Below, piece by piece: positions 18,342-40,049 of a DNA stretch of 40,629 bases. The number at the start of each line of letters is the position of its first letter. Position 1 is the stretch's first letter. The notes under the pieces were generated by a model, which saw only the letters and a list, made by a program, of their open reading frames with translations, had not been told where the DNA came from and ran no database searches. The translations under genes and the position numbers were made by a program. Source of the DNA: Pseudobdellovibrionaceae bacterium (GTDB lineage Bacteria; Bdellovibrionota; Bdellovibrionia; Bdellovibrionales; UBA1609); contig JAUVAX010000019.1 in the NCBI GenBank assembly GCA_030591685.1, positions 1 through 40,629 of the forward strand. Direction: 5' to 3'.

Positions 18342-19835
18342 CTAGAGGGTGCTTTTAAATAAAAATGGATAAGACACACTGACCTCCGTGCCACCTTTTG
18401 GTTTTGGAAACTTCCATTTAGCTACTTTTCGTAACATACAACCCTCTACCATTCGGCTGTTCATCGTCGAAGAACCTATACCTTGAGCACTCACCCTCCC
18501 ATTACCAGCAATAGTAAACCGAACAAGTACTTTACCATACAGACCCGGATGAGCGGCCAATTGACGTTCGTAGCAGTACCTGATTTGCCCCAGATAGGTT
18601 GCAATAACCCTTGCAATCACCTCTCTTGGTAGGCCCCCCTCGATAACAGTTTCTTCTTCAATTATACCAACATCTGCTGTGCCAATGCCCCCAGTGGAGA
18701 GGCTGGCTGTGCCTCTAAAATTTGTTGCGCCGCCCCCTTTACCCCCTGTAGAAACGCCTGCCACTTTAAATGATTTACCTAATTTTGAACTAGAGGCCCC
18801 AACACTGGCCCGACCCATCCTAGACAAAGCACGACCTGATGGCCCAGAGCCAGCAACTCTCCCCGTAGCCCTAATAAGGTGTGCTGTTTTAGAAGCTCGT
18901 TTTGCTATCTTACCAATAAGCTTTGATAAGCCCGAGGCCTTTAGCTTATTAACCACCTTGACCACTGTTTTTTGCTTAGATAATTTTGTAATCGTTGTCG
19001 ATTTAGAGCTTATTGACCGTGCCGCCGGCTGCCGATTGGCGATTTTCGACTGACTTTTTTTAGCCTGAGCCTTGAACTTTTTAACAGACTTTGCGTCAAA
19101 TATTATTTTTGTGTACTTATTCACTTTTGGCTTATTCTCATCCGCAACCTCTTCACTATTGTTTGGGGATAAAATCATAATCGATGTAAATATCAACATT
19201 AAAGCTAAAGCGCCCAGAAGAGGTTTTTTTAACGAAGGGTCTACAAAGTTTTTTACCTTTTCAGAAGGGCTATAATCAAGCTCATGGCAATCTATTATAC
19301 GTTGCTGTATTTCTGTATCACCAAAAGTGCAACTCAACCATTTACCACCCTCTGGTGGCGCTAAGATATTATCTTTCTTATCATACAAAAAGTGATAAGA
19401 GCTCGATTCCGGCAACAGAATAGTTTCAATAACATAATCAAGCTTTCTAACAACAATTTGATGGCGCCTGCAGTTTGTAAAAAGTTTCTTTTTATTAACG
19501 TTTTCTTTCGAGAAAAGTGTGCTCTCTACTATTTTTGGAGCGAGCTTTAATACATGCTCCCCAATGTGAATAGTGGTGAGTTTATGTATTTTTCTTTCAA
19601 CAATCTTATTAGACTGCAGCCAAGTCCCCGACTCACTACACAAGTCAGAAATGACCCAGTTGTTGTTTAAAAACTCAATATGAGCATGAAAGGGGGACAC
19701 ATGATCACCCAAAAGCCTTAATGTCGCCTCACGAGAGCTCCCAAGGGTTGTTAAGCCAGAGGTGTGTTTGATTCTATGGCGACCCATAAACTTTTCTTTA
19801 TAACTATGCTGAATTTCTAATTCTATACGCTTCAT
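18342..19835 (-). CDS. gltG: GltG-like FHA - transmembrane - AgmX/PglI C-terminal domain protein
   Basis: The 497-residue protein joins cytoplasm and periplasm in the gliding machine. A forkhead-associated domain spans about 25-100 (LGSSREATL, SPFHAHIEF with the conserved His). The usual Gly-Arg and Asn-Gly phosphopeptide residues are replaced, so phosphothreonine binding is doubtful. One transmembrane helix (about 205-223) is followed by a long basic and Gly/Ser-rich periplasmic linker (240-400). The TonB-like AgmX/PglI C-terminal domain (401-497) has Cys421 in IRYCYERQLAAHPGLYGKV, Cys466 in VEGCMLRKVAKWKFPKPKGG, and a final SYPFLF strand. This domain order matches myxobacterial GltG. The C-terminal domain would contact the barrel or TPR proteins. 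It is the last gene of the first unit. Confidence 0.87.
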   Translation of the reverse strand: MKRIELEIQHSYKEKFMGRHRIKHTSGLTTLGSSREATLRLLGDHVSPFHAHIEFLNNNWVISDLCSESGTWLQSNKIVERKIHKLTTIHIGEHVLKLAPKIVESTLFSKENVNKKKLFTNCRRHQIVVRKLDYVIETILLPESSSYHFLYDKKDNILAPPEGGKWLSCTFGDTEIQQRIIDCHELDYSPSEKVKNFVDPSLKKPLLGALALMLIFTSIMILSPNNSEEVADENKPKVNKYTKIIFDAKSVKKFKAQAKKSQSKIANRQPAARSISSKSTTITKLSKQKTVVKVVNKLKASGLSKLIGKIAKRASKTAHLIRATGRVAGSGPSGRALSRMGRASVGASSSKLGKSFKVAGVSTGGKGGGATNFRGTASLSTGGIGTADVGIIEEETVIEGGLPREVIARVIATYLGQIRYCYERQLAAHPGLYGKVLVRFTIAGNGRVSAQGIGSSTMNSRMVEGCMLRKVAKWKFPKPKGGTEVSVSYPFLFKSTL

Positions 19836-19837
19836 TT

Positions 19838-20074
19838 TTACCTCAAGTAATCTACTGATTCCTTAATCTCACTATCAAATTTATTTTTCACTTTATAAAG
19901 GGGGATAAATTTCAAGCCCCTTTTTTGCATTAAATAAGCTCCATCTGGGTTTCTTGAAACTCCATCAACGGAGGCTCCGTCAAAACTAACGTTTTGCTTT
20001 TTTCTGTAAATAACATTTTTTGAAAATGCCGGGAGCACGATGCTCATCGATAGAACAATAATAAAGGCTCTCAT
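19838..20074 (-). CDS. small secreted protein in the gliding unit
   Basis: The 78-residue product has a signal peptide (MRAFIIVLSMSIVLPAFS) and a short mature part of about 60 residues with the segment DGAYLMQKRGLKFIPLYKVK. Its ATG overlaps the stop of the TPR lipoprotein gene as ATGA, and its stop lies two bases from the FHA gene, so it is a true gene of the operon. Position between GltE-like and GltG-like genes recalls GltF of Myxococcus. The protein is too short to confirm this. Confidence 0.65.
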   Translation of the reverse strand: MRAFIIVLSMSIVLPAFSKNVIYRKKQNVSFDGASVDGVSRNPDGAYLMQKRGLKFIPLYKVKNKFDSEIKESVDYLR

Positions 20075-21000
20075 TTAGTAACCCCTTTCTTTTTTGTTTT
20101 GCTCAGTGAAGATAGATTTCTTTTTTTTGTAAGCTTCTGAGTTTGAACTATTTTAGATTTTAAATTTTTTATCTTTTTCTTTACACTAACCCCTGTAACC
20201 TTAATTACTTTTGATTGCCCATGGTCACTTTGCAAGTCTTCATAGGCATCAAGAGCCGCACTTAAATTTAGTAGCTTTTCCTCATACAGTAGCGCTAAAT
20301 TCAGTCTTGCAATTAGGCTTTTTGAATTTTTACGTAGTGATTTTTTAAGGTGAGTCACTGCTAACTTATGCTCTCCTGTATCTATATAAACTTGACTGAT
20401 GCCATGTAGAGCCGATAAGTTATCTGACTCTTTTGTGAGCACATACTTATAGTGTTCTAAAGCCTTTGAAGGCATCGCATCTCTGGCATAAATTTGAGCT
20501 AAAAACAGGTGTGCTTCAATAATTTTCGGATCTAACGAGAGCGCCTTCTCCAAACTCTTCACAGCAAGAGTTTGGTTTTTTAACTTCCAGTGAATCCTGG
20601 CTTTTTGAAACTCAAGCAGCCCTACATTTGGTGCTTTCTTTTGGGCCAAATCAACCATCCATAAGGCTCTTTCAAAGTGTTTACTATGCAGTGCCGACAA
20701 GCTTAAATAGTAAGCCCCCCAGGGAGCCTTTGAGTGCTTTTCAAGCATTAATCGACTGACAGTGAGCACTCGCTTCCAACGGTTCACCTTTACGCATGAA
20801 TTAGCATAGGACATCAATGATTTTAACTCTTTGAATTTTTTTAATACGTGAGTCCCCTTACAATCTCTTGAGCTCACATCAGACATTGATTTGGGCTCAT
20901 ACTTTGATTTAAAGTTTAAGACCTTTTGCTTGTTAGTAGGACCGACACTGGCACAGGCAGTAAACATAAACGCAAATAAAAGTATATAAATTAACTTCAT
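20071..21000 (-). CDS. gltE: TPR outer-membrane-type lipoprotein, GltE (AglT)-like
   Basis: The 309-residue product starts with a lipoprotein signal (MKLIYILLFAFMFTACAS) with lipid attachment at Cys16. About six TPR repeats follow between residues 60 and 270, for example AKRVEKAL-type pairs such as LAQIYARDAMPSKALEHYKYV. The C-terminal 40 residues are strongly basic. In Myxococcus, GltE (AglT) is a TPR lipoprotein encoded next to GltD and GltG, which fits this position. TPR lipoproteins of this type act as periplasmic docking platforms. The gene overlaps the GltD-like gene upstream and the small secreted gene downstream, each by four bases. Confidence 0.78.
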   Translation of the reverse strand: MKLIYILLFAFMFTACASVGPTNKQKVLNFKSKYEPKSMSDVSSRDCKGTHVLKKFKELKSLMSYANSCVKVNRWKRVLTVSRLMLEKHSKAPWGAYYLSLSALHSKHFERALWMVDLAQKKAPNVGLLEFQKARIHWKLKNQTLAVKSLEKALSLDPKIIEAHLFLAQIYARDAMPSKALEHYKYVLTKESDNLSALHGISQVYIDTGEHKLAVTHLKKSLRKNSKSLIARLNLALLYEEKLLNLSAALDAYEDLQSDHGQSKVIKVTGVSVKKKIKNLKSKIVQTQKLTKKRNLSSLSKTKKKGVTK

Positions 21001-23948
21001 AATGCCCCTCCGTATTCAATGGCCAAAACTGGAGGCAGGTGACCCACTTTAACTAGGCTTGGCAGTGACTTAACCATATTGGCCTCGTTCAACTTATTTT
21101 GCAACTCAGTAACACTGCCATCATGTAATTGATACTTTTTAGCTAAGCTCAGGGCCTCTGAAAGAGTCTCAACACTACGCTCTTCCACTGGGTATGCTAT
21201 TTTTTCAATTTCTTGCCGAAAGGTAGGCTCATCTTTACTTTCAAGACCTCTTGGTGTTGGCATATTTAAAAGGCTTTTATAAAAATTCTTATATATGCTC
21301 GTCAACCGGGTCATTGCTTTAACAGAAACCCCAGGGTCCCCGTATCTAATGGCCGATTCGTAAGCTCTTTGTGCTTTATCGAGTTTTCCTGTTTTTAAAT
21401 TTAATACTAAGGATAATCGATCTAAACTTGTTTTTAAACTTTGGTTTTCAAATTCACCTTGTAAAATTTCTGCCTGTATAAATCGAGCTCGAGCTTTTGC
21501 ATATGTAGAAGCTTTAGAGCCCATGCTTAATATTTTCTTTGCCTCAACAAAGGCCTTTGGCAATTGATTTGTTTTAGCATAATTTTCAACATATTTAAGT
21601 TGAGCCAAGCTGGCATCAGGTTGAAACTTATTTTTTATAATTATATTAAGTATCCTTTGATGGGCCTTTGATAAGGGCTTTGAAGACTCCAAAATCTCCA
21701 AACTCTTAAGGGCCTGGTGCTGAATCTTTTTATTGGGGCTATTTAACAACTTAAAGTAAAGGGCCTTTGCCTTTTTTGTTTTACCTGATAAAAAATAAAA
21801 ATCAGCTGCTAATGTTAACCATTTAACAGACTCTTTTTTATCCTTCTTACTTAAAGACTCTAAAATAACTGCAGCTCTCTGAGTATTACCAATCGCCTCG
21901 TATGATTGGGCCGCCTTTACTAATGCCTCTTTTACGTGAGGGGCCGCTGGAAAAAGTCGGTAGTAAGATTCAGCGGCCTTCGCGCCGACGAGGAAATCCT
22001 GCATCTTATAATGGATTTGTATCGCATTCCACCAAGCCTTTTCTGCTAATTCTGACTTAGGGTTTTGTATGGCAAACTTTTTGTAATCACTAGCGGCCTT
22101 TTTAAGCTTTCCCTTTTCTTCAGTCTTTTGAACAAGTAGAAAGTAAGACTGCTCGTAGAGGTGATTTAATTTTATTTTTCTACCCTTTGACTTCTCTCTT
22201 TTTATTAATTTATATACATAAGTTTTTAATTGAGCGTAATCCTTTTGGATATTTAAAATATCAAGGTAAATATCCTGGGCCTTAATCCCCTTTTTATGGT
22301 CCTTGTAGGATTCACCAAGTACTATAAACTTAAGTTTAGCTTCTTTGTACCTGGCTTTCTCGTAGGCGATAAGCCCTAGTTTAAACTCAACATCTAACCG
22401 GTGTTTACCTCTTTTATGATTGCTAATGTAATTATTTGATAATTTAACGAGACTCTTTTCATCTGTATCGTTCCATTTATCTTTAACTGATTTTTGCAGA
22501 CTCACAATGGCTGCATACCGTGAATCATGTGCCATCTGGCCTTTACTGGACTTAGTCCCCAGCACATAACTGCCCACAAGGCTATACTGTGATGATGCAA
22601 GGGAGTACTTTTTTAATTGAAATAACAGGTCCGCATATATATATCGAGCCTTTGTAGCAACAGATCCTTTAGTGTTATGAGATAAATACACAGAGAACGC
22701 CCCCTCTGCCGAATGGGCAAATACTGGGTGCGTGGGGTTCTTTTTCCATAGTCTAATCCACTTAGAGCTTAAGTTTAGACTTAGTTTGTTCAGGTCTTTT
22801 TTGCAGTCCCTGATCTCTGTAAATCGCTTTTTATCTTTGGCACTCACCCTTGACCAATCACTCTTAAAGCAAAATTCATCGTAAGCTTTGAGGTGTGAGA
22901 CCACCTGAGGCCTGTTTTTCATATCTTCATAGTTTTCAACCCTATATCGGTGGGCCGTAGGTAACAACGATGAGCTGGTTTCATTTTCTATAAAATCCTT
23001 TAAAATAATTTCTCGACTTTTATACTTACTGTGAATTTTATAAAGGTGTGAAAGTTTCATTATGTAAACACTGGCATCAAGTTCGCCAGCCCACTTTTTA
23101 AAGTACTCGTAACCTCTATTAGCTGAGTGGACATCTTCAAAAAATAAACTCATATCGCCAAGGGCTTCCTTTCTTAAATCAAGCCTCGCATCAATATTAT
23201 TTTTTACTACATAACGGCCATATTTAACAACATCCTCTAATTGTTTTAACCCTAGGTCTGTTTTTCGCAAATTATAATAAGTCCAAGCCGCCTTATATAA
23301 ACCGTAAGGATAAACCCGTGAGTCCGGATACTTTCTAATGGCTTGAAAATGTGACAATGCGTTTTTAAAACTTTTTGCTTTATAATTGATCTCTCCTATT
23401 GCCAAATGTGCATCTGGAACAAGTGGTGAGTACGAGTAGTTTTTAACTAATTTCCAGTATTTTTTTTCGGCATTACGGCCCTGTCCTATTTGTTGATAGG
23501 CCATTCCGTTGTTAAATATAACAAGATCTATGTTTTCATATGTTGGGAATTTTGACTCAATATAGCTATAAACCCTAATGGCCTTTTTTAAAAACTTCTT
23601 AGATGATTGATTTTTAAGCGTCCTGGGCATAAATGAGATTACTTTTCTTGAATCCTTATTGAGTTCAAAAAACAATACTGTTTTTGACCTTCGAACATAC
23701 AACTCTGCAAGCCTCATTTGCATATCTGGCTCTAGAGGTGTGTTCTTGTACTTTCTTATCAGTTTTTTTAATAATTTTATGGCCTTTTTTTCAGATTTTG
23801 AGACTAATATTTCAGTTTTCAGGGCCGTAATATCTGAAGTCCCCCTCAGCTGACTCTCAATTGAGCCTTTCTGCGCTGAATAGGCCTTGAACCCACTTAA
23901 TATAGTGAGCAAAAGAATTATTAGAATGGTTTTTACCGCCTTAAACAT
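20997..23948 (-). CDS. gltD: very large periplasmic TPR protein, GltD (AgmU)-like
   Basis: The 983-residue product has a signal peptide (about 1-25) and TPR-like repeats along almost its whole length. Clear examples are MQMRLAELYVRRSK, HLAIGEINYKAKSFKNALSHF, WWNAIQIHYKMQDFLVGAKAAESYY and AADFYFLSGKTKKAKALYF. No catalytic motif is seen. GltD (AgmU) of Myxococcus is a long periplasmic TPR protein needed for gliding and encoded with GltE and GltG; order and architecture agree here. It may form a periplasmic scaffold or a moving track partner between the inner-membrane motor and outer-membrane barrels. It starts seven bases after the second TolR-like gene, joining motor and Glt genes in a single unit. 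Confidence 0.8.
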   Translation of the reverse strand: MFKAVKTILIILLLTILSGFKAYSAQKGSIESQLRGTSDITALKTEILVSKSEKKAIKLLKKLIRKYKNTPLEPDMQMRLAELYVRRSKTVLFFELNKDSRKVISFMPRTLKNQSSKKFLKKAIRVYSYIESKFPTYENIDLVIFNNGMAYQQIGQGRNAEKKYWKLVKNYSYSPLVPDAHLAIGEINYKAKSFKNALSHFQAIRKYPDSRVYPYGLYKAAWTYYNLRKTDLGLKQLEDVVKYGRYVVKNNIDARLDLRKEALGDMSLFFEDVHSANRGYEYFKKWAGELDASVYIMKLSHLYKIHSKYKSREIILKDFIENETSSSLLPTAHRYRVENYEDMKNRPQVVSHLKAYDEFCFKSDWSRVSAKDKKRFTEIRDCKKDLNKLSLNLSSKWIRLWKKNPTHPVFAHSAEGAFSVYLSHNTKGSVATKARYIYADLLFQLKKYSLASSQYSLVGSYVLGTKSSKGQMAHDSRYAAIVSLQKSVKDKWNDTDEKSLVKLSNNYISNHKRGKHRLDVEFKLGLIAYEKARYKEAKLKFIVLGESYKDHKKGIKAQDIYLDILNIQKDYAQLKTYVYKLIKREKSKGRKIKLNHLYEQSYFLLVQKTEEKGKLKKAASDYKKFAIQNPKSELAEKAWWNAIQIHYKMQDFLVGAKAAESYYRLFPAAPHVKEALVKAAQSYEAIGNTQRAAVILESLSKKDKKESVKWLTLAADFYFLSGKTKKAKALYFKLLNSPNKKIQHQALKSLEILESSKPLSKAHQRILNIIIKNKFQPDASLAQLKYVENYAKTNQLPKAFVEAKKILSMGSKASTYAKARARFIQAEILQGEFENQSLKTSLDRLSLVLNLKTGKLDKAQRAYESAIRYGDPGVSVKAMTRLTSIYKNFYKSLLNMPTPRGLESKDEPTFRQEIEKIAYPVEERSVETLSEALSLAKKYQLHDGSVTELQNKLNEANMVKSLPSLVKVGHLPPVLAIEYGGAL

Positions 23949-23955
23949 CTTTCAC

Positions 23956-24468
23956 CTATTCCATTGATAATGTAGCCATTTTTAAGTCCGCATACCCTGC
24001 CATCGAGGCTGTATACATAACTTTTTTTAACACCCCGTAGGGCAGCTCTTTATCTGCTTGCATAATTATTTTTCCGTCAAATTTATATTCTTCGTTCTTC
24101 TCAGCAATAGCCCTAGCCTTCTCAGCTTCATTATTTAAAGCCTTAAAAAGGTCACTAATAAAATCTGAGTCTTCACTAGCAATATCTCTATTTAAAATTT
24201 TACCATTCTCAAATGTAATTACCTGCCTGTCCTGAACAAAAATACCCATTTTTGATACCACAACCTTAACCCCTTCCACCGGGCTTGTGTAGGAAGATGA
24301 CATTGGTAAATCTAAACCCTTTTGAGGAGTTATATTAACCGCACTTGTTGAGTAGCTTTTAAGTAAGAATACAATAATAATAGTAAACATATCCACCATC
24401 GCCGTAAGCTGGAGGATGAATGTAGATTTTTTATTATTTCTCTTCATTGCATTAACAACTCTACTCAT
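23956..24468 (-). CDS. TolR/ExbD-like motor subunit that keeps the transmembrane Asp (AglQ/AglS-type)
   Basis: The 170-residue protein has one N-terminal transmembrane helix (about 18-37, LQLTAMVDMFTIIIVFLL) and a periplasmic domain with the TolR/ExbD fold, including KIIMQADKELPYGVLKKVMYTASMAGY. Asp26 occupies the position of the proton-carrying aspartate of TolR and ExbD, although the normally preceding Pro is Ala23. With the TolQ-like protein and the paralogue upstream it should form the proton channel that powers gliding. Its ATG directly follows the TAG of the first TolR-like gene. Whether it corresponds to AglQ or AglS cannot be decided by eye. Confidence 0.85.
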   Translation of the reverse strand: MSRVVNAMKRNNKKSTFILQLTAMVDMFTIIIVFLLKSYSTSAVNITPQKGLDLPMSSSYTSPVEGVKVVVSKMGIFVQDRQVITFENGKILNRDIASEDSDFISDLFKALNNEAEKARAIAEKNEEYKFDGKIIMQADKELPYGVLKKVMYTASMAGYADLKMATLSME

Positions 24469-25035
24469 CTAGCCCCCCACTACGTTTGAGAAAATAATAT
24501 CCGGAAACATAACTGTCGTCTCGACTCTTTTATTGGACTCTTTGTCTCGTATATAAAGCTTAGGATCCTCTGACTTAGTACCACGCGCCTCATCAATAAC
24601 TTTTACAATATCCTCATATGATACTGATTCAGCAGGAACTAGATCAATCCTAAAAGTTCGTGGGTACTTTTGCTTAATTGTTACTAGTTGAGTATGGAGA
24701 CGATTCAGATCCCACTGACCACCTCGACTAGATATTTTAATGCTCTTTCTTGACCTTTTGCCTTTTGAAATATTTAAGTAAAAGGACTTGTTCTTCTTCA
24801 TATTCAGTTGAATAGATATTTTTTTGTTTTTATTATTTCTATCTTCCTCAATTGCTTTTTGCACTACTTGTGGAAGTGCACTTTCAATAATAGTGACTTT
24901 TACAAATACTGTGGCTAGGAGCATAATTGGAATTAAAGTTACCATTAGAGCTAACATTGGGGATAGATCGAGGTCATATGTGCTCTCCTCGTCACTACCA
25001 CTCTTAAATCGTATTTTATTTCTTTTAAAAGCCAT
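24469..25035 (-). CDS. TolR/ExbD-like motor subunit lacking the transmembrane Asp (AglQ/AglS-type)
   Basis: The 188-residue protein has the ExbD/TolR layout: a short cytoplasmic tail, one membrane helix (about 27-48, LSPMLALMVTLIPIMLLATVFV), and a periplasmic domain with a C-terminal segment containing PAESVSYEDIVKVIDEAR. The conserved Pro26 is present, but at the place of the usual proton-carrying Asp (three residues later) there is Ala29. Two aspartates (Asp21, Asp23) lie just before the helix instead. It may therefore be a structural or non-conducting subunit. Gene order (TolQ-like, then two TolR-like genes) matches aglR-aglQ-aglS of Myxococcus. Confidence 0.85.
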   Translation of the reverse strand: MAFKRNKIRFKSGSDEESTYDLDLSPMLALMVTLIPIMLLATVFVKVTIIESALPQVVQKAIEEDRNNKNKKISIQLNMKKNKSFYLNISKGKRSRKSIKISSRGGQWDLNRLHTQLVTIKQKYPRTFRIDLVPAESVSYEDIVKVIDEARGTKSEDPKLYIRDKESNKRVETTVMFPDIIFSNVVGG

Positions 25036-25051: not shown

Positions 25052-25780
25052 TTAAGCTGATTTTCTATTTGATGGCGGAGGAGACCCTTTACTGCTCGAC
25101 TCAGGGATTTTCTTAGCCTCTAGGTCATCAGGGAAAGCGGCATCTTCTGTAAAAGGTTGATAGTGACGAGTCATTAGTAAGTCTACAACTTTTGTAGAGT
25201 ACTCTGAGATTTCCTCAAGTAGTTTATTTTGCCTTGAATGTAAAAACGAATAAGCAATCATAACTGGGATCGCTACCGATAGTCCTAAAGCCGTTGTGGT
25301 CATGGCCATTGAAATACCCTGTGATAATATAATTTGTTTTTGTGAGGGGTCGGCGAAACTCACAGCCTTAAAGGCCATAATTAAACCTAGGATAGTCCCT
25401 AATAATCCAACAAGTGTAGCTACGTTTGAGATCATCGATAAGTACCCGAGTCTTCGACCAAGATTTGGTATTACCTCCGAGAGCGAAATATCAAGCCCCT
25501 GATAGATCCCCTCATCATCCCTATCTGACCTTTCGAGAACACCTTTAATAACATGAGCCAAAGGTGCCTTTTCATTTGCAGCACAAAAGGTCACAGCATC
25601 CTCAACCTTATCACTAAGTATATAGCTTTTAACCTGAGTCATAAAGGACTCGGATTGTATTGCATAATCGAAATACAATACTTTAACTCGCTCTACGATG
25701 AGCGCAAGTCCACAAATGCCCATAACTACAATTACGTAAACTGGCCCGTGATCGACAATTGCTGATATTAACGAATCCAT
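25052..25780 (-). CDS. aglR: TolQ/ExbB/MotA-like proton-channel protein, AglR-like
   Basis: The 242-residue inner-membrane protein has three helices (about 14-32, 110-132, 150-175). Its central MotA/TolQ/ExbB core contains LGRRLGYLSMISNVATLVGLLGTILGLIMAF and ISMAMTTTALGLSVAIPVMIAYSFLHSRQ. This subunit forms the ring around TolR-type helices and uses proton flow to drive movement. The short Pro/Ser-rich cytoplasmic tail (about 222-242) is variable. The gene starts at ATG 25780 with GGGGG six bases upstream. Presence with two TolR-type genes and Glt TPR genes distinguishes it from the housekeeping Tol-Pal system. Confidence 0.88.
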   Translation of the reverse strand: MDSLISAIVDHGPVYVIVVMGICGLALIVERVKVLYFDYAIQSESFMTQVKSYILSDKVEDAVTFCAANEKAPLAHVIKGVLERSDRDDEGIYQGLDISLSEVIPNLGRRLGYLSMISNVATLVGLLGTILGLIMAFKAVSFADPSQKQIILSQGISMAMTTTALGLSVAIPVMIAYSFLHSRQNKLLEEISEYSTKVVDLLMTRHYQPFTEDAAFPDDLEAKKIPESSSKGSPPPSNRKSA

Positions 25781-25908: not shown

Positions 25909-26745
25909 CTATGCGGCCTTAGCGCTATTCGAGTAGGCCATAATTGCTTTTTGAGTATCATCATTAATTGTAGTAAATTTTAAACCATACCTAATGGGCG
26001 AATCCTTTGATTTAACACCATCAACAAACTGCTTACTAACAACTTCACAGACAGCATTAAATGGCGGAACCCCATCACAGGGTTTAAAATGTAAATACAA
26101 GGTATCACCAGGGACAGCCAGAGAGTTCTCCATAATAACGCCGGCCCCGCCGGAGCTGATCTCCATGGCCCGACCTTTCCAAACGTTACTGTTATTGTGT
26201 ATAATTATAGTGCCATTATACACTGATCTTTTATGTCTTCTTCTGAAAAACAATTCTGATACTTCGGCCGTAGATTCACTTTTTAAATTCTTAATTTTTT
26301 CTGGAGTAAATGACTCTACTTCTGCGATCCTCTTCCAAACATCCATATCTGACTTCCAAATAAAATCGAATTCAAAAATGAGCTTTTCTTGTAACATCTT
26401 AATGACGTCCCCGTATGAGAACGGACCAAATTTATTTTCACCCTTTAATAGAAACCACTCTGTAATGTCACCAGCCTCACCAATCTTAATATCTGAAGGC
26501 TCGTCATCGACCAAGCCATGAGGCTTTTCAACAGTATTTGTAGGGGGCGCTTGTGGCTTCACCGACTTAACTTGTTTCATAAGCTCATCATGATCTACAA
26601 AGGAGACCCACTCACCTGATTCTTCACTATAGATATAATCCATAACCGATAACTTTTTTGATTTAACTTTTTTAACAATTTCATTAAGAGTTAATGGACC
26701 CATTTCTTGGCCCTCATGTGAAACATGAAATTTTTCTTTACTCAT
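25909..26745 (-). CDS. GYF-GYF-PilZ protein, putative cyclic-di-GMP-responsive adaptor
   Basis: The 278-residue cytoplasmic protein has two GYF_2-type repeats: residues about 5-55 (VSHEGQEMGPLTLNEIVKKV) and 96-145 (WFLLKGENKFGPFSYGDVIKML). A PilZ domain follows at about 166-272. The PilZ motifs are RRHKR at 169-173 (RxxxR) and EISSGG at 195-200, where the usual Asp/Asn of (D/N)xSxxG is Glu. The domain may thus bind cyclic-di-GMP, perhaps with altered affinity. GYF domains bind proline-rich peptides; GltJ of Myxococcus gliding complexes contains one. Placement just before the motor genes suggests a regulator or adaptor of this machine. The ATG at 26745 has AAGGA eight bases upstream. Confidence 0.85.
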   Translation of the reverse strand: MSKEKFHVSHEGQEMGPLTLNEIVKKVKSKKLSVMDYIYSEESGEWVSFVDHDELMKQVKSVKPQAPPTNTVEKPHGLVDDEPSDIKIGEAGDITEWFLLKGENKFGPFSYGDVIKMLQEKLIFEFDFIWKSDMDVWKRIAEVESFTPEKIKNLKSESTAEVSELFFRRRHKRSVYNGTIIIHNNSNVWKGRAMEISSGGAGVIMENSLAVPGDTLYLHFKPCDGVPPFNAVCEVVSKQFVDGVKSKDSPIRYGLKFTTINDDTQKAIMAYSNSAKAA

Positions 26746-31187: not shown

Positions 31188-32930
31188 TTACTCGGCCTCT
31201 TGCATCTGCTTTTTAAGCATCAAAAGGGGTGAATACTCTGTCGAAACCCTTAATCCGTCTCTTAATAATTGTCCGGCTTTGTCAAATTCTCCGTCGTGAA
31301 AATGTGTGGTAGCCAACATGGAAAGAGCCATTAAATTACGGGGTTTATTTTTAAGCACAAGCGTTGACTCCCTCAATGTGCACTCGTAATTTTGCTCTCT
31401 CATACAGAAGCGCGCTTGTAATATCATTGGCAGTGAAAATTTATGCTTACTATTGTTTTTGACGGCTCCCTTGACGGCAATACGCGCCTCAGACTCTAAA
31501 TTTAAATTGTCCTTTATATAGCCCACCACGGCTTGTGCCAGTGCATCCTTAGGGGCTTGATGGGCTAATTTATCGGCTAACTTACTGGCCTTATCCCTTT
31601 TAAGAGCTTTGATGCTACAAAAAGCATCTAACGTTGTTTTTAAATGCTCTTTTTTTACAGATAACTTTATGGCGTTACAATACTCCACTAAAGAGCTCCA
31701 CTGAACCCAGTTTTGATTAATAAATAAGTTATACCTATGATTATTAGACTGTTCAGGGTCCATATCTAAGAGACTTGTAACCTCTTTATCCGCATATTTT
31801 TTAGGGTTAGTCAGCACACTCAGATATATGAGCATCAGTTTAGACTCTTGAGCTAAAAAAGCGCCCTTTTTAGCCACCCACCTTAGGTGTTTTTGAGCTT
31901 GCAACAATTTATTTAATACTATTTCACCTTTTAATTGAGCCACTAAACTGAGTGCATAATAAAATCGAATCATTTCAGGTTCATCATCAATTTTTAATGC
32001 TCTCTTGAAGCTTTTACTGGATTTTCTATAATTTGACCTTAATGACTGAAGCAGGCCAAGGTTAACAAGTGCAGGGGTATAGTTAGGGTCTATATCAAGG
32101 GCTTTTTTATAAAAAATTGTTGCTAAACTTTTATTACCATCTTTATATCCCAAGGTCCCTAAGGCTGTTATAGCCCGTTTTTTTATTTTAGGCTCACCAT
32201 CGCTTTCAACACTATGGAGAAGTTCCTCTGCCAAAAAAGACTGGCTGGTGAGATGAACTAAAAGAGGTGCTAAAAAAATATATATGTCTTTGCCCTCAGA
32301 ATTTATCTCATAGGCTGCACTTAAATTATCTAGCGCCTCCTTGTAAAGTCCTAAATGAATTGCATCTTTACCTAACGATACGTACTCGTCATATTTTTCA
32401 TGATCGCTCTTTGGTTTTATGATCAGCGTCTGTATTAAAACTAAGACCAAAAGAAGAACCGCAACCGTCCCAACAGTAAGCCACATTTTTTTATTTAACA
32501 TTTGTGCGCCAGCAGAGGCCACATCTGAAGCTTGATACCCAAAAGACTTCACTGGCTGCGGAGTGGTTTCAGGAGGAATTTGAGTTTCATCCTTAAGGTT
32601 TTCAATAATAATTTCTTTAGTCAGCTCTAAATTTTTAGTGTCAATTTCGCCTGTGAGGTCGTCAGAAATAGGGTGATACTCATCTGTAAGAGTCATCTCA
32701 TCGCTAAAGGTTTTTGTTATGCTCGTATCGCTATTTACTTCTTGTCTTACTTCGTTAACAATTTTTTCAAATTTCTTTTCATCACACAGAGGTCTCCAAA
32801 AAGCCTGAGGAACAGCGGCCTCATCATGAATAGAAAGTTCACGAGTTTTTAATTTAGCACTCAGTTCAGCTTGTGTGAAAGGGCCCAGTATACGGCCCGA
32901 GCTTTTAACAAGCCAATTTGCCGAATCCAT
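31188..32930 (-). CDS. GYF - transmembrane - periplasmic TPR protein
   Basis: The 580-residue protein begins with a GYF_2-type domain (about 5-50, WLVKSSGRILGPFTQAEL). An acidic, proline-containing linker (60-145) and one transmembrane helix (150-171) follow, then TPR repeats (about 175-575) on the other side. Examples are AIHLGLYKEALDNLSAAYEI, ALVNLGLLQSLRSNYRKSSKS and LMALSMLATTHFHDGEFDKAG. The topology should be cytoplasmic GYF and periplasmic TPR. This mirrors the cytoplasm-to-periplasm linkage of gliding proteins, and the GYF shares its type with the PilZ protein at 25909. It begins 18 bases after purH with AGAGG five bases upstream. No named family is known to me. Confidence 0.8.
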   Translation of the reverse strand: MDSANWLVKSSGRILGPFTQAELSAKLKTRELSIHDEAAVPQAFWRPLCDEKKFEKIVNEVRQEVNSDTSITKTFSDEMTLTDEYHPISDDLTGEIDTKNLELTKEIIIENLKDETQIPPETTPQPVKSFGYQASDVASAGAQMLNKKMWLTVGTVAVLLLVLVLIQTLIIKPKSDHEKYDEYVSLGKDAIHLGLYKEALDNLSAAYEINSEGKDIYIFLAPLLVHLTSQSFLAEELLHSVESDGEPKIKKRAITALGTLGYKDGNKSLATIFYKKALDIDPNYTPALVNLGLLQSLRSNYRKSSKSFKRALKIDDEPEMIRFYYALSLVAQLKGEIVLNKLLQAQKHLRWVAKKGAFLAQESKLMLIYLSVLTNPKKYADKEVTSLLDMDPEQSNNHRYNLFINQNWVQWSSLVEYCNAIKLSVKKEHLKTTLDAFCSIKALKRDKASKLADKLAHQAPKDALAQAVVGYIKDNLNLESEARIAVKGAVKNNSKHKFSLPMILQARFCMREQNYECTLRESTLVLKNKPRNLMALSMLATTHFHDGEFDKAGQLLRDGLRVSTEYSPLLMLKKQMQEAE

Positions 32931-38537: not shown

Positions 38538-40049
38538 CTATATTTTTTTTACCAGAAAATCGGGAGTAAAACTCTCACTGACCTGAACAACCCCCACTTG
38601 ATTTTCAGAAGCTTTCATTAATTTTTCTAACACTCCATCGGCTGTAGTAAATAACTCACGACTGTCATGGCAAAAGCTCGGATACTCACTGACCCCAATA
38701 CTAAGAGTGACCTTTGTGTCTCTACTTAATGGTTTAGAAAAGTCAACATCCTCGACCATGGCTCTCAGTCTCTCAGCTTTTATTAAAGCCCCTTCAAAAG
38801 ATGTGTGTGGCAACATAAGTGCAAATTCATTATCTGAAATGCGCCCTAAAACATCGTTTACCCGGCAAGTTTTAGATATGATTTGAGATACTGTTTTTAA
38901 TAAAACCTGTTTGTGATCTATCAAATCGTCTCCCCTTAAAATCTCATTCTCATCTAAAGAAATAATAAGCAAAGAAACGGGCAAAAAAGTTCTTCGGGCT
39001 CTTTTTATTTCGTCTGAAATGTGAGAGAAAAATTTTGTTCTGTTTAACTCGCCGGTGACGTCATCAAAAACACCTAATTGATCCAGCTTGCTCTGTGTCA
39101 ATAACGATAAGCATTTTTGCTCTACAGATTTATGCCTCAGTTGAGGCCGTACACGCTCCTCTTTACTCTTATCATCAGAAAAAATAACAAAAAAACCAAA
39201 AAAAACATCACTAAATTTTAACTCTTTAATTTTATAATTCTCAATATTGAATTTTTGCTTTAGCAGCTCAGTAACTCCTTTAATTTTTTTAGGGGCGGAC
39301 AGGAGCCTTTCAACACCCACCCCTCCTTCGGCTAACAAATCGACAGTTAACCCAGGCACCCCCTGCACATCAAAATACCGGCTGTCTTTAACGGCAAGGA
39401 CTCTATAGTTAGGGTAGTATTTAAAAAATAAAACTTCTGCTTCCGTATTTTCAGTCGAAAGGTACTGCAAATACTCTTGAATAACCTGATCTAGAGATGA
39501 TTGCTCATTTAGTGTGTTTAACCAGCTCAGGTCTGAACTATTAAACACCTCTCCGCCGCCGACGTTTCCACCCATGTTTCCACAGACGTTTTCAGGTAAG
39601 GTATTGTCTAATACCATGGGTATCGACCCCAAGGTCTGTTTAATTTGCTCGTTTTCATAAAACAGATGATCTCTCTCCACAGCCCTGTCTACTGACTTTG
39701 TTAAAAGCCCACCCATCAAGGGGTATTCAATACAATCACAGGCCCCCATATTAAGGTACTCAACGGCGTTTAAAAGAGTTAAATCTGTGGCCACTAAGAT
39801 TAAATGAGACTCCGGGAGGCGATAAAAAATAGATTTAATAAACACGTCGTCAACAAAGCTTCCGTCAAACACGTACACAATAACATGAGGCGGAGACACC
39901 TTAATACTCTCATCAAACTGAGCCTTAGTTTTTAACATTCGCGAAAAATAACCGTGCCCCTGAAGAGCCTCAAAAAGCTCTTTCGAGCGAGCCTGGTTTT
40001 CATCTAAAATACATATTGAGAAATTATCTCTTATTTCTGTCAAATCCAT
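38538..40049 (-). CDS. receiver-like / degenerate GGDEF protein
   Basis: The 503-residue protein has an N-terminal receiver-like fold (about 8-128). A candidate phosphoacceptor is Asp62 in VIVYVFDG, and the usual Lys before Pro is Tyr109 in CIEYP, so it may not be phosphorylated normally. A middle region (about 180-300) is unrecognised; a GAF-like fold is possible. A C-terminal GGDEF-type domain (about 326-495) has VTGELNRTKF and GRISDNEFALMLP. The signature reads SDNEF at 405-409 instead of GGDEF, so diguanylate cyclase activity is unlikely. It may act as a protein-protein switch or bind GTP. It starts six bases after the histidine kinase stop, which suggests they work together. Confidence 0.85.
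   Translation of the reverse strand: MDLTEIRDNFSICILDENQARSKELFEALQGHGYFSRMLKTKAQFDESIKVSPPHVIVYVFDGSFVDDVFIKSIFYRLPESHLILVATDLTLLNAVEYLNMGACDCIEYPLMGGLLTKSVDRAVERDHLFYENEQIKQTLGSIPMVLDNTLPENVCGNMGGNVGGGEVFNSSDLSWLNTLNEQSSLDQVIQEYLQYLSTENTEAEVLFFKYYPNYRVLAVKDSRYFDVQGVPGLTVDLLAEGGVGVERLLSAPKKIKGVTELLKQKFNIENYKIKELKFSDVFFGFFVIFSDDKSKEERVRPQLRHKSVEQKCLSLLTQSKLDQLGVFDDVTGELNRTKFFSHISDEIKRARRTFLPVSLLIISLDENEILRGDDLIDHKQVLLKTVSQIISKTCRVNDVLGRISDNEFALMLPHTSFEGALIKAERLRAMVEDVDFSKPLSRDTKVTLSIGVSEYPSFCHDSRELFTTADGVLEKLMKASENQVGVVQVSESFTPDFLVKKI

Follow-up and report, generated by a model that had tools for sequence, protein, structure and literature searches.

A gene encoding a protein with two GYF domains and a PilZ domain stands at the head of an operon for an AglRQS/Glt-type motor in a genome of the Pseudobdellovibrionaceae, and this arrangement is conserved across the order and beyond it. 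We propose for the protein the role of a soluble effector, located in the cytoplasm, that responds to cyclic dinucleotides and acts on this motor of Bdellovibrionota. Its PilZ domain would sense a cyclic dinucleotide, c-di-GMP being a likelier ligand than cGAMP, and one or both GYF domains would tether the protein to the motor by binding a proline motif in the cytoplasmic tail of AglR, which is disordered. Binding of the ligand would change either the seating of PilZ on AglR or the grip of the GYF domains on the tail, and the motor would in consequence be braked, clutched or licensed, in a way that resembles the action of YcgR or MotI on MotA but employs another docking module. For all these elements together, i.e. 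a cyclic-dinucleotide-controlled adaptor that docks on the AglR tail and affects gliding, we estimate a probability of about 0.45.

Domain architecture and gene order

The window, i.e. the whole stretch of 40,629 nucleotides that was analysed, carries the following features, all on the minus strand:

25909..26745, minus: GYF-GYF-PilZ protein, 278 aa, ATG start (open reading frame, Pfam, AlphaFold pLDDT 87.5)
26560..26733, minus: GYF domain 1, residues 5-62 (family-specific GYF model, 71.7 bits)
26542..26559, minus: KPQAPP, residues 63-68, in the linker that follows GYF1 (P64 in at least 90% of A1)
26296..26460, minus: GYF domain 2, residues 96-150 (Pfam GYF_2; family GYF model, 78.7 bits)
25933..26244, minus: PilZ domain, residues 168-271 (Pfam E 1.3e-10; Foldseek matches MotI, YcgR, Alg44)
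26227..26241, minus: RxxxR motif, R169-R173 (both Arg in 96/96 homologues)
26146..26163, minus: ExSxxG motif, E195-G200, instead of (D/N)xSxxG (comparison of 96 homologues)
25052..25780, minus: AglR-like proton channel subunit of the TolQ/ExbB family (MotA_ExbB E 5e-25)
25055..25126, minus: disordered C-terminal tail of the AglR-like protein, residues 219-242 (pLDDT <50)
25073..25081, minus: PPP in the tail motif SPPPSNRKSA, residues 234-236, candidate GYF ligand (PP conservation in AglR tails)
24469..25035, minus: ExbD/TolR-like motor subunit 1, AglS/AglQ-like (ExbD E 5e-13)
23956..24468, minus: ExbD/TolR-like motor subunit 2 (ExbD E 1e-10)
20997..23948, minus: large TPR protein in a GltD-like position (TPR matches; conserved neighbour)
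20071..21000, minus: TPR lipoprotein-like protein in a GltE/AglT-like position (TPR matches)
18342..19835, minus: FHA - membrane helix - TonB_C protein, GltG-like (NCBIfam)

In the 278-aa protein Pfam recognizes GYF_2 (PF14237) in two stretches, above the gathering score (53.7 bits, E 1.8e-14), and PilZ (PF07238) with 41.9 bits against a gathering score of 22.5 (E 1.3e-10); GYF1 taken alone scores 24.8 bits with the generic Pfam model, slightly under the cut-off of 25.8. The AlphaFold model, built from 55 sequences (mean pLDDT 87.5), comprises two small α/β domains and a β-barrel, with residues 70-92 forming a disordered linker. A Foldseek search with this model placed MotI/DgrA, an inhibitor of motility, at the top and the PilZ domain of YcgR third, and also retrieved Alg44 (probability 1.00). 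The double GYF joined to PilZ that the initial annotation had read from the sequence is thus agreed upon by Pfam, AlphaFold and Foldseek, and its numbering of R169, R173 and E195 is correct. No Pfam match to the YcgR-type N-terminal domain was found in the protein, which has the GYF domains there instead. Foldseek likewise retrieved 7z3c, the GYF domain of GltJ from Myxococcus (probability 1.00). A sequence search of the PDB with the single protein returned chance matches only, whereas the GYF1 region of the family profile did reach the 7z3c sequence with E 3.2e-5; judging from this profile match, GYF1 is homologous to the solved GltJ domain, whose presence in the Myxococcus machine the initial annotation had pointed out.

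A gap of 128 bp separates the GYF-GYF-PilZ gene from the TolQ/AglR-like (MotA_ExbB) gene downstream of it on the same strand, after which come two ExbD genes, two TPR genes and one FHA-TM-TonB_C gene, likewise on that strand. The locus has the genes that define an AglRQS set, a tandem array of one MotA_ExbB gene and two ExbD genes. The GltG-like protein matches the NCBIfam GltG equivalog with E 2e-46 and 158.7 bits, below the cut-off of 650; its AgmX/PglI C-terminal domain scores above the cut-off and its FHA-TM-TonB_C order fits GltG. A scan for promoters and terminators around the GYF-GYF-PilZ gene found signals no commoner than in shuffled sequences. Elsewhere in the window (31188-32930, minus strand) a 580-aa protein combines an N-terminal GYF domain, weakly matched (domain E 6e-5), with a membrane helix and TPRs, and its homologues occur near the GYF-PilZ gene at four further loci (L058, L091, L096, L105).

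Chance is excluded as an origin of the GYF-GYF-PilZ combination, because a match is present in 129 of 141 genomes of the order. The gene belongs to the motor operon at no fewer than 76 of 91 aglR-type loci, usually directly upstream: it is upstream on the same strand, mostly less than 200 bp away, at 65 loci, upstream and overlapping the start of the longest AglR open reading frame at seven (L107, L108, L111, L122, L124, L254, L265), and downstream in the same operon at four. These 91 loci were fetched around GYF-PilZ matches as well as around AglR matches, so the share is biased upward. The same arrangement is found in a family of another order of the class (L294-L296), and the position before the motor genes, to which the initial annotation had drawn attention, is therefore conserved order-wide and also in a sister family. 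The operon of family f8 is broken into two parts, each with its own GYF-PilZ gene (e.g. in genome G085, L062 with the TPR half and L094 with the AglRQS half), and at 17 loci GYF-PilZ adjoins only the TPR half of the machine. Scored per genome (GYF-PilZ profile E <= 1e-10, AglR type E <= 1e-46), both are present in 114, both absent in 17 and discordant in 10 of the 141 genomes; the Fisher value of 5e-14 overstates independence, because many absences fall in reduced or incomplete genomes. Taken as a sequence pattern, these data make it very probable that the GYF-PilZ protein is linked to the window type of AglRQS motor.

Further relatives with variant architectures were also encountered. Families f20 and f21 (L297, L298, L299) have two GYF-PilZ-like genes in tandem, one of them with long and very proline-rich linkers, which suggests self-binding or mutual binding. 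The source genome encodes a second, stand-alone GYF-GYF-PilZ paralogue of 237 aa with no adjacent motor (C41, L106:7273-7983, plus strand), and, in a protein of some 583 aa, another two GYF_2 domains (C56, around 21732-22094; L041, L042).

PilZ motifs and the candidate ligand

Among 96 homologues, R169, R173 and G200 show no variation and S197 is almost fixed. Position 195 is Glu in most of them and Ser or Asn in the operonic (Bd1482-type) copies of Bdellovibrionaceae, so that E195 is a trait of the family and no local mutation. Of the two motifs expected in a c-di-GMP-binding PilZ domain, RxxxR is therefore present and (D/N)xSxxG is not. In known PilZ domains the Asp or Asn at the position equivalent to E195 contacts guanine, and its replacement weakens the proposed explanation. 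It is nevertheless very improbable that the domain, with E195 marking its decay, has given up nucleotide binding and persists in a fixed role, either structural or as an adaptor. Such decay would agree with a Glu that lies outside the (D/N)xSxxG pattern, with Ser or Asn at this site in the Bd1482 types and with the variation of residues flanking RxxxR in some members, but non-binding PilZ domains have as a rule lost the two Arg, which are retained here in 96 of 96 sequences together with an almost equally constant SxxG. We consider it probable, on these motifs, that the window-type protein binds a cyclic dinucleotide.

The ligand need not be c-di-GMP, because position 195 is non-canonical and the genomes carry GGDEF enzymes of the cGAMP (Hypr) type. 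Six GGDEF matches were found in the source genome, and two of these domains (L277 on C73 and L283 on C77) show Ser instead of the Asp of ordinary cyclases at the Hypr selectivity position, with the same surroundings as in the Bd0367-like enzyme of the genome taken as Bdellovibrio bacteriovorus HD100 (L281; 'DHLFGS'). The source organism may thus make cGAMP besides c-di-GMP. We know of no cGAMP receptor protein for the effect of Bd0367 on gliding exit. Bd0367 makes cGAMP, which is reported to control this exit (PMC9140294). The conserved replacement of Asp or Asn by Glu (or Ser) where the motif contacts the base would alter which base is preferred. The GYF-PilZ protein could then recognize either 3',3'-cGAMP or both this nucleotide and c-di-GMP, as a receptor linking signals from Hypr-GGDEF enzymes directly to the gliding motor; we regard this as quite unlikely. 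The c-di-GMP input into gliding put forward in the initial annotation accordingly stands as far as the invariant RxxxR is concerned, and is qualified by E195, by the Hypr GGDEFs and by the fact that the idea had already been proposed for Bd1482.

The proline tail of AglR

GYF domains bind proline-rich peptides. In the family studied here GYF2 is the one retained by single-GYF relatives, and over the 96 aligned rows its W97 and P108 are invariant and W137 is present in all but one. Proline-rich tails on motor proteins were what the initial annotation had advised looking for, and a conserved one was found on AglR: the window protein ends in SSKGSPPPSNRKSA, with residues 219-242 predicted to be disordered, and in most relatives the end follows the pattern PP(P)...K-[AV]-[SAV], which is new in the present analysis; the HD100 tail reads VTPPSPGQKVS. 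A PP occurs in the last 25 aa of 42 of 57 AglR proteins of the window type, whereas all 20 ExbB/TolQ paralogues taken from this genome group lack it (p 2e-9, kinship ignored). The PP mostly lies 7-9 residues from the end; Lys or Arg is found at -3 in 51 and Ser, Ala or Val at -1 in 55 of the 57. The linker is divergent among these relatives while the PP is retained.

Several distributions connect this tail with GYF-PilZ. In two Bdellovibrionaceae whose motor operon lacks the gene (L112, L230) AglR stops before the tail; AglR homologues from elsewhere in the phylum without a GYF-PilZ neighbour (L301, L303-L313) have no PP in any case; and the PP is kept where motor and GYF-PilZ sit apart in the same genome (L232, L233, L235, L236, L246). 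On the other hand, the docking step is weakened by the absence of PP from 22 of 83 AglR proteins that do have a GYF-PilZ neighbour (family f8, genus g14 and others) and by its presence in G119, a genome in which the search gave no clear GYF-PilZ. On the AglR tree six independent pairs gave 2.3 concordant and 1.0 opposed changes of adjacency and PP, which is not significant with so few events, and with so few independent pairs the contrast in tails is largely one of a single lineage against the others. The pairing is a lead worth testing and coevolution is not demonstrated; that GYF docks on the AglR tail is, from sequence patterns, a matter of even odds.

It is possible, though rather doubtful, that the protein is instead a scaffold of the same machine, still under cyclic-dinucleotide control, whose GYF domains bind some other proline-rich partner such as a Glt or polarity protein, and which positions or assembles the complex without gating AglR, as GltJ may do in Myxococcus. 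The homology of its GYF to that of GltJ, the 17 loci adjoining the TPR half only, the f8 AglR tails devoid of PP and the second GYF protein of the window (GYF-TM-TPR, 31188-32930) would all suit such a role. It is countered by the AglR tail, which is conserved though its linker diverges; no other motor subunit of the window has a free proline tail. On the N-terminal tails of AglS/AglQ no PP was found in the window, and no pattern emerged. Within the GYF-PilZ protein itself, a PP in the linker between GYF1 and GYF2 was considered as a universal internal ligand and rejected, since only 36 of 71 linkers contain it. KPQAPP (residues 63-68) is a possible internal or self ligand that could compete with AglR.

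The motor, Bd1482 and comparison with known systems

In the genome taken as HD100 (G004) a 206-aa GYF-PilZ protein (Pfam GYF_2 and PilZ; L107) precedes aglR. By position this single-GYF gene is Bd1482, and the 18 PilZ matches in G004 equal the count reported for HD100 (PMC9140294). According to Hobley et al. (2012), Bd1482 might be a c-di-GMP receptor through which DgcA signals act on gliding (PMC3271064), so that the idea of a PilZ protein at the gliding operon is already known; their description makes no mention of the GYF part or the AglR tail. Like the window protein, Bd1482 stands at the operon head before aglRQS and combines GYF_2 with PilZ; unlike it, it has one GYF domain rather than two, and Ser in place of E195. 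The HD100 sequence nearest to the window protein is not Bd1482 but a stand-alone GYF-GYF-PilZ at 3.009 Mb (L074), and Bdellovibrionaceae retain such a copy distant from the motor. A degenerate GGDEF gene, at 3.029 Mb, is found 20 kb away from L074. The window too has a degenerate GGDEF, CdgA/Bd3125-like, at 38598-39068 (minus strand; RISDNEF for GGDEF), in the same order relative to GYF-GYF-PilZ as in HD100. Because a degenerate GGDEF is near both, the stand-alone copy would seem to have stayed behind at the original site when the motor operon relocated or underwent duplication.

That the adjoining set is the motor, as the initial annotation had it, holds insofar as it is of AglRQS type, but it is one of several: six AglR-like matches were found in G000, and Luciano et al. 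(2011) considered Bd0828-0838 the set closest to the Myxococcus motor and found no GltJ in B. bacteriovorus. An apparent counterpart of Bd0828-0838, a second AglR/TPR cluster, occurs in the source genome (C93, 58109-68390; L209), and sets related to it persist in reduced genomes from which the window-type cluster has been lost. The window-type cluster might therefore perform another envelope task, such as transport or surface remodelling (cf. the paralogous Glt-like sets of Myxococcus), with GYF-PilZ regulating that task. The multiplicity of sets and the preference of Luciano et al. for Bd0828-0838 speak for this, but we hold it unlikely, since bd1480 of the window-type operon is surface-induced and lowered in mutants of Bd0367, and predation on biofilms is impaired when Bd1481 (aglR) carries a transposon insertion (PMC2277423). 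The same two observations favour the Bd1480-series set as the gliding motor, against Luciano et al. The off-motor GYF-GYF-PilZ of Bdellovibrionaceae, and the chance that the motor set is not the gliding set, weaken the explanation that we prefer, i.e. an effector docking on AglR.

Cyclic-dinucleotide control of gliding in Bdellovibrio, a question since 2012, has a known synthase, the GGDEF enzyme DgcA/Bd0367 that is required for gliding (PMC3271064, PMC9140294), and no receptor was found in the open literature. A PilZ protein with docking domains of its own, encoded with the motor order-wide, together with a proline tail on AglR, offers a concrete candidate for both receptor and docking site. 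In the open literature we found no paper that treats PilZ and GYF together, none that connects GltJ, GYF and gliding, and no description of the operonic GYF-PilZ architecture, its spread, its duplication in split operons, the family-wide Glu or the AglR proline tail; the GYF part of the operonic PilZ protein appears to be undescribed so far.

Among known systems, PixA, PixB and PlpA of M. xanthus are PilZ proteins that affect gliding (PMC8316039), but they have other domain partners, govern how often cells reverse and their polarity, and are not presented in that paper as part of a motor operon. GltJ/AgmX of M. xanthus shares the homologous GYF domain and the Agl-Glt context; it is a membrane protein without PilZ, whereas here the GYF domains are on a soluble PilZ protein. 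The best fold matches, MotI/DgrA of Bacillus and YcgR of E. coli, are PilZ effectors that act on a proton channel of the MotA family. The GYF-PilZ protein has GYF domains and lacks the N-terminal domain of YcgR, and its proposed target is a channel of the ExbB/TolQ type, belonging to a gliding-type machine, and not a flagellar stator; by analogy it would work like MotI and YcgR, without being a member of that group. If this is true, motor brakes under second-messenger control extend from flagellar stators to ExbB-type gliding motors, and a second messenger could act directly on the surface movement of predatory bacteria.
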